A stretch of 64,000 bases of DNA from Gammaproteobacteria bacterium (GTDB taxonomy: Bacteria; Pseudomonadota; Gammaproteobacteria; SZUA-229), in NCBI GenBank assembly GCA_029882355.1, contig JAOUKV010000003.1, positions 62,001 to 126,000 on the forward strand, read 5' to 3'. Under the pieces are notes generated by a model, which was not told the DNA's origin, made no database searches, and saw nothing but the letters and a program-made list of their open reading frames with translations. Made by a program: the position numbers and the translations under genes. Below, piece by piece: positions 32,181 to 32,938 of the stretch (positions within the stretch are counted from its first letter, which is position 1; every line of letters begins with the position of its first letter).

Positions 32181-32618
32181 TTATACCTGCAACCAGAAAG
32201 TCACAGGACCATCATTAATTAGCTCTACCGCCATATCAGCACCAAACCTTCCGGTCTGTACCTGCGGTATTTGCTGACTCATTATATCAACAACCGCGGC
32301 AAATAAATCAGCTGCTTGCCCTGGTGGCGCTGTCGATGAAAAACTCGGGCGTTTGCCCTTATTAGTATCAGCAGCCAGCGTGAATTGCGGCACCAATAAG
32401 ACTTCTCCTGCAATATCTAGCACACTTAAGTTCATCTTGCCGTCATCGTCGGAAAAAACTCGATATTCCAGCAGTTTTTTTACCAGCCGCTCAGCCTGCT
32501 CACGGCTATCGTTCTTTTCTACACCCACTAGCACCATCAGACCCTTATCAATTTCTGCGATACAATTTTCATTTACCGTCACTGAGGCGCGGGTCACACG
32601 CTGAAGCAAACCAATCAT
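32181..32618 (-). CDS. dtd: D-aminoacyl-tRNA deacylase
   Basis: A 145-residue protein: [22 protein letters not shown]-like stretch [19 protein letters not shown], and [11 protein letters not shown] (Gly-cisPro-type motif). It removes D-amino acids from tRNA. It leads the dtd-his-tat minus-strand run. Its promoter region is shared with the GacA-type palindrome at 32658-32675. Confidence 0.94.
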
Positions 32619-32657: not shown

Positions 32658-32675
32658 TGTAGGAATAGTCCTACA
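32658..32675. promoter_or_regulatory. GacA/UvrY-type upstream activating palindrome
   Basis: TGTAGGAATAGTCCTACA is an 18-base palindrome with seven-base perfect arms. It fits the GacA/UvrY box form TGTAAG-N6-CTTACA with one compensating change in each arm. Its centre is about 66 bases upstream of the predicted RNA start at about 32734. There is no T run, so a terminator role is unlikely. Confidence 0.75.
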
Positions 32676-32720
32676 ACACATAGCCCAAACCACTGATAGC
32701 ATGATATTAACCTCAGGCAC

Positions 32721-32727
32721 ATAATAC
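32721..32727 (+). promoter_or_regulatory. Candidate -10 element of the Csr/Rsm RNA
   Basis: ATAATAC, with no good -35 at the correct distance (around 32698-32703). That fits a promoter that depends on an activator bound at the upstream palindrome. Confidence 0.4.
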
Positions 32728-32733
32728 CTCACA

Positions 32734-32922
32734 AGGACAAAGGGAAAGAGTCACTAAAGGAAATAGGGAAATAACGTAGCATCAGTTTATATCAAGGATA
32801 AGGAATAAAGGACTAATTAAGATTTAAAGGATGAACCCAAAGGAACAAAACGGACTGCTATAGCGCGAGACTCATCACCAATCAAGGAAGGTCACAAACC
32901 CCGGTTTACCGGGGTTTTTTTT
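32734..32922 (+). ncRNA. Csr/Rsm-family regulatory RNA that binds CsrA/RsmA (candidate)
   Basis: The 320-base gap between dtd and ttcA holds no ORF. From about 32734 to the terminator there are eleven GGA triplets, at 32735, 32743, 32759, 32767, 32796, 32802, 32810, 32829, 32842, 32852 and 32886, mostly in AGGA or AGGGA context. This is the hallmark of CsrB, RsmY and RsmZ RNAs, which titrate the translational repressor CsrA/RsmA. A GacA-type box lies upstream and a strong intrinsic terminator ends it. Length is about 190 bases, between RsmY/Z and CsrB. The exact start is estimated. It diverges from dtd and converges on ttcA. Confidence 0.82.
32896..32922 (+). terminator. Rho-independent terminator of the Csr/Rsm RNA
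   Basis: AAACCCCGG-TTTA-CCGGGGTTT stem-loop with eight T on the plus strand. On the minus strand the tail is only TTTG, so it mainly serves the plus-strand RNA, since no plus-strand ORF precedes it. It may partly serve ttcA too. Confidence 0.9.
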
Positions 32923-32938
32923 ATTTCTGCGATAACCA

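Follow-up and report, generated by a model that had tools for sequence, protein, structure and literature searches.

The question raised by this locus is whether an 18-bp palindrome situated between a divergently transcribed gene and a GGA-rich RNA is a binding site for the response regulator GacA/UvrY and, if so, which of its two neighbors it serves. The window, a stretch of 64,000 nucleotides that was analyzed at its full length, carries the palindrome TGTAGGAATAGTCCTACA, in which seven-base perfect arms (TGTAGGA/TCCTACA) flank a 4-base spacer, as had been noted in the preliminary description; read in the form usual for GacA/UvrY boxes, it is an inverted repeat with 6-bp arms and an N6 spacer. 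The sequence likewise agrees with the earlier remark that the site departs from TGTAAG-N6-CTTACA by one compensating change in each arm. Since position 5 is occupied by G/C in the window and the arms are therefore not exactly TGTAAG/CTTACA, we refer to the site as a GacA-type variant box and not as the classical consensus. On one side of the box, with its start codon 40 bp away, lies a minus-strand gene (32181-32618) that we take from its translation to be dtd; on the other side are the RNA and its terminator, beyond which follows a further minus-strand gene, presumably ttcA, again judged by its translation. On the comparative sequence data presented below, we hold with high confidence that the palindrome is a putative GacA/UvrY site driving the gene of a Csr/Rsm-type sponge RNA (Table 1).

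Table 1. Features of the box, promoter, and small RNA, in window coordinates
Feature	Position	Strand	Remarks
Putative GacA/UvrY-type box TGTAGG-N6-CCTACA, TGTAGGAATAGTCCTACA	32658..32675	.	Upstream activating sequence; conserved with family RNAs
CTGATAGC element in the -35 place	32693..32700	+	Resembles right half-site; exactly 23 bp after right half of box
-10 element CATAAT	32720..32725	+	61/62 or 84/85 bp from the start of the box in each of the 44 promoters
GGA-rich small RNA, Csr/Rsm type	32732..32921	+	11 GGA; model R1, 158.6 bits; approximate ends
Helix P1, 5' arm (GAGTC)	32748..32752	+	Covariation with 32869-32873
Helix P2, 5' arm (GTAGC)	32776..32780	+	Covariation with 32857-32861
Helix P2, 3' arm (GCTAT)	32857..32861	+	Covariation with 32776-32780
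Helix P1, 3' arm (GACTC)	32869..32873	+	Covariation with 32748-32752
Intrinsic terminator AAACCCCGGTTTACCGGGGTTT plus T tract	32896..32924	+	Hairpin part 32896-32917

Taken alone, the palindrome is unremarkable, because by our estimate several palindromes of the 7+4+7 kind are expected per 64 kb. A search for GacA-like boxes with zero to two mismatches gave one match in the window, the exact box itself, where 1.19 were expected. The exact box is present in a single copy in its own genome, in which near matches with up to three mismatches (51, versus 123 for the reversed pattern) are not in excess. The commonness of seven-base palindromes and this lack of excess speak for a chance inverted repeat beside an RNA whose GGA richness reflects base composition; so does the GGA count of the window RNA, as its 11 GGA exceed those of 300 mononucleotide shuffles (at most 9) but dinucleotide shuffles reach 12.

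The comparative data point the other way. In a family sample of 54 genomes of uncultured Gammaproteobacteria from 14 sampled genera, a box of the form TGTARG-N6-CYTACA precedes all 44 scorable family RNAs (38 perfect, 6 with one mismatch), while the same pattern with at most one mismatch was found in 0 of 880 samples of shuffled upstream DNA. These 44 RNAs are the 45 strong ones minus G049:C119, which has only 8 bases upstream; coming from related genomes in 12 of the 14 sampled genera, they are not independent cases. The exact sequence TGTAGG-N6-CCTACA occurs at 43 sites in 36 of the 54 genomes, compared with none in the 54 for a reversed-pattern control; 29 of the 43 sites precede a GGA-rich RNA (at least 10 GGA within 260 bases), and 28 are near dtd. 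A DNA search of 40 genomes, namely, the source genome (G000) and 39 relatives, recovered the element in five of the six same-genus relatives and in some other members of the family. It is thus conservation, and not the palindrome itself, that lifts the box above chance level; on this ground the earlier judgment that box, GGA-rich RNA, and terminator are unlikely to have come together by chance holds, and so does the expectation that relatives keeping the RNA also keep the palindrome. With the sequence and placement of the box conserved ahead of all 44 RNAs, control matches at zero, and covarying helices in the RNA (see below), the chance explanation is already refuted by the comparative data, and its probability is negligible.

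The preliminary description had also looked to other copies of the box next to GGA-rich RNAs for support. This was not borne out in the source genome, where neither a second RNA nor a second exact box was found. Three genomes of genus g11 (G049:C119, G050:C136, and G052:C100) do have the RNA twice, the additional copy being diverged; in the two of the three where this copy has DNA upstream, it is preceded by a mixed box, TGTAGG...CTTACA.

The geometry of the promoter shows which neighbor the box follows. In the window, the -10 element CATAAT begins 62 bp after the start of the box. Of the 44 promoters, 30 show a distance of 61/62 bp and the other 14 one of 84/85 bp. The start of the RNA is inferred to lie near 32732, which places it about 66 bp from the box center, in agreement with the spacing initially proposed; the poor -35 region noted at the outset was confirmed by a scan that found no sigma-70 -35/-10 pair. 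In favor of a box that regulates the divergent dtd and is near the RNA by accident, the site lies between the two genes and is 29 to 78 bp from the dtd start in 34 of 40 loci. The full range over the 40 loci is 29 to 1,098 bp (961 to 1,098 bp in the remaining 6), these being the measurable ones among 48 given, with at least four contigs present under two names. The distance to the -10 element of the RNA, in contrast, is fixed at one of two values, so the box follows the RNA and not dtd. In addition, some box-bearing RNAs had no dtd within the short stretches examined. Regulation of dtd as the role of the box is largely refuted by these distances, and we regard it as most improbable.

The region between box and -10 element has a regular structure of its own. 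All 30 short-spaced promoters have CTGATAGC or a close variant exactly 23 bp past the right half of the box. All 14 long-spaced promoters have a second right half-site (CYTACA with zero or one mismatch) at exactly +23 bp, and 10 of the 14 have a CTGATAGC-type element at +45/46; the consensus CTKAYA was read off these same promoters, which makes its counts partly circular, though not the exact 23-bp distance. As a control for the half-site at +23, the best of four positions elsewhere succeeded in 3 of 84 cases. Some promoters carry intermediates (e.g., CTGACA and CTTATAGC), which suggests that the element that replaces the -35 is a worn half-site. A similar step is found in E. coli K-12, where the UvrY box of csrB (L250) is followed at 23 bp by the start of a second site, TGTAGGAGA, and the two half-sites of csrC (L251) are 22 bp apart. 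The csrB half-site TGTAGGAGA is identical to an arm of the variant box found here. The consulted portion of PMC4682653 reports that UvrY binds E. coli csrB, notes these extra half-sites, and describes a second UvrY crosslinking region, close to the -35, that does not preserve the inverted repeat. It is tempting to assume that GacA forms a phased array on half-sites recurring in exact 23-bp steps between the box and CTGATAGC, its dimers lining up along one side of the helix and bridging to RNA polymerase, and that the 22- to 23-bp step of csrB and csrC reflects a general rule for GacA/UvrY. We offer this tentatively, at somewhat less than even chances, because relatedness alone could keep the spacing fixed within the family. 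If true, such an array could account for UvrY crosslinking near -35 where no box is visible; the natural contrast between the short-spaced type of promoter (box, +23) and the long-spaced type (box, +23, +46) makes the stepping model directly testable.

The RNA downstream is of about 190 nt, and all of its 11 GGA are in ANGGA context; no other 190 bases on either strand of the window are as dense in this motif. Thirty-five aligned relatives (39 before removal of duplicates under two names) have 10 to 17 GGA each. A covariance model built from this alignment, R1, detected the RNA in 43 of the 54 family genomes, one of them (G007) through weak matches alone, and in 20 of the 22 good genomes; 45 strong RNAs remained once three weak matches of 26.7 to 28.7 bits (two in G007, one in G006) had been dropped. 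Among 274 genomes drawn from the class, R1 gave three strong matches (91 to 159 bits), all within the family; matches of 22 to 30 bits outside the family, in 15 of the 274 genomes, were treated as chance. DNA matches at L009 to L011 were likewise discarded as chance matches to the terminator alone. At gathering level, no Rfam family matched the window. A permissive scan gave RsmY as the sole Csr/Rsm family among the weak matches (18 bits versus a gathering threshold of 57), and in 20 relatives no Csr/Rsm family of Rfam matched at E ≤ 0.5.

Within the alignment, two pairings, P1 and P2, are predicted long-range helices that are kept through compensating changes. Both were spotted by eye and then tested by statistics that ignore relatedness: when pairing partners were swapped, 0 of 1,000 swaps were as good for either helix, whereas 173, 463, 1,000, and 589 of 1,000 were as good for four control pairings. 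By pair counting, the covariation score of P1/P2 was 0.240, compared with 0.160 for shuffled pairs (0 of 500 as good) and at most 0.053 with slid partners. Among the 10 long-spaced RNAs alone, the signal for P1 was weak (77 of 1,000). RNAalifold recovered the terminator and a small hairpin alone from the alignment, and the single-sequence fold of the window RNA was no better than those of shuffles (z = -0.71). Two attributes of the Csr/Rsm sponge class, many ANGGA motifs and a CsrA encoded in the same genome (G000:C34:5138-5293; 94.8 bits, above its cutoff), are present, and the RNA very probably soaks up this global regulator.

The regulators upstream were proposed for a search at the outset, and the result was mixed. 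A hybrid kinase of the BarA/GacS type was found (L186:973-3654), with the domain order sCache_4-HAMP-HisKA-HATPase-REC-Hpt; BarA is its best NCBIfam model (629.6 bits, below the strict cutoff of 890). The UvrY model found no uvrY orthologue in the source assembly, the best score being 145 bits against a cutoff of 280. This score belongs to the regulator L014, which was rejected as an orthologue of GacA at 34% identity. The UvrY proteins of sibling genomes, with 245 to 259 bits, are also below the cutoff of 280; at E ≤ 1e-60, uvrY is found in 36 of the 54 family genomes, including five of the six siblings.

A gap in the assembly is the simplest reading of the missing uvrY, for three reasons. 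The first is that uvrC, which was on the same fetched stretch as uvrY in 10 of 11 cases, is absent from the source assembly as well, although the same search was positive in 12 of 14 control genomes. The second is that contig C45 starts within a neighbor of uvrY, at a point equivalent to L127:6525; this neighbor is the last gene in the order seen in sibling G006, namely, a gene that we take by eye to be pgsA-like, uvrC, a further gene, uvrY at L127:4209-4877, and a gene starting at L127:5229. The third is that the siblings have uvrY. The other side is less clear, as contig C25 of the source genome agrees with L127 of the sibling over just its initial 193 bases and then differs: next to the expected uvrC side, G000:C25:9672-11056 ends in an apparent GGDEF gene, and this is possibly a rearrangement.

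The absence of uvrY from the source assembly, together with the presence there of four further NarL-type regulators of full or nearly full length and a half-site with the nonclassical G at position 5, leaves room for another NarL/LuxR-type regulator to bind the box in place of GacA, for example, that encoded at G000:C49:16607-17224 beside a kinase of its own. Against this speak the absence of uvrC too from the assembly, the uvrY genes of the siblings, and the BarA type of the kinase at L186, as well as the boxes themselves. At position 5, 33 of the 44 boxes have G/G in their arms, 10 have A/G or G/A, and 1 has A/A. Mixed boxes such as TGTAAG...CCTACA and the A/A box in relatives join the site to the GacA consensus and indicate that TGTAAG has drifted to TGTAGG within a single family of sites. 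We therefore consider a different regulator very unlikely and retain GacA as the probable ligand. The putative recognition helix of the family UvrY differs from that of E. coli (e.g., SPKTVSTYRKRL versus SPKTVNSYRYRM); it is a guess that this difference explains the base change at position 5.

Not all exact boxes belong to such RNAs. Fourteen of the 43 have no GGA-rich RNA after them and may serve other promoters, or some of these sites may be chance. Two, in genus g12 (L161:1501-1518 and L163:1501-1518, of G017 and G064), have an epimerase-like gene on one side and a divergent gene on the other, the latter encoding in L161 a PAS-GGDEF diguanylate cyclase by Pfam; this is a possible non-RNA target of GacA. 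The other 12 (L139, L140, L141, L146, L160, L171, L172, L174, L176, L177, L179, and L181) could be further members of the regulon, similar sites of another regulator, or favored short palindromes.

We infer the following course of events for the GacA-driven RNA gene. A signal sensed by the BarA/GacS hybrid kinase would be passed by phosphorelay to GacA, and GacA-P would bind the box. Through helically phased half-sites 23 bp apart, GacA could reach the weak promoter, with CTGATAGC standing in for a -35 and CATAAT as the -10, and would recruit RNA polymerase by contact. With its ANGGA motifs, the RNA would then capture several CsrA dimers, and this titration would free the target mRNAs of CsrA.

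An ordinary kind of circuit, GacS/GacA acting on a Csr sponge RNA, is well supported; its box is a variant, and the geometry of its promoter is unusually clear. The analysis places it in a family of uncultured Gammaproteobacteria, with an RNA that matches no Rfam family, and provides a rule for finding more such systems (TGTARG-N6-CYTACA plus the 23-bp step). Relative to the open-licence literature, the RNA outside Rfam with its P1 and P2, the G at position 5, and the 23-bp half-site step from the box to the -35 region appear to be new. The geometry also bears on how GacA/UvrY activates a promoter from a distance, given the promoter-near crosslink without an inverted repeat described for E. 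coli in that same portion of PMC4682653.

The box resembles the UvrY boxes of E. coli csrB (TGTGAGAGATCTCTTACA) and csrC in being an 18-bp inverted repeat of 6-6-6 form, in being accompanied by another half-site, at 23 bp in csrB and at 22 bp in csrC, and in driving a GGA-rich RNA, for which CsrA binding is predicted here. Unlike those boxes, which lie about 180 bp before the start, it is 61/62 or 84/85 bp before the -10 element, and the main box has G, not A, at position 5. The GacA sites of Pseudomonas rsmX, rsmY, and rsmZ share its position before a GGA-rich RNA with a terminator; for rsmY, the GacA upstream activating sequence is given as TGTAAGCATTCTCTTACA in the part of PMC4353343 consulted, and the P. 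aeruginosa rsmY site is put at -75 in the corresponding part of PMC4950607. The present locus differs from these in its TGTAGG/CCTACA arms, its neighbor dtd, and an RNA unrelated at the Rfam level, and its position 5 differs from the boxes tested in both E. coli and Pseudomonas. Like CsrB, CsrC, RsmX, RsmY, and RsmZ, the RNA has 10 or more GGA, mostly ANGGA, a terminator, and a CsrA in the genome; unlike them, it has two predicted long-range covarying helices that are unmatched to any described family.
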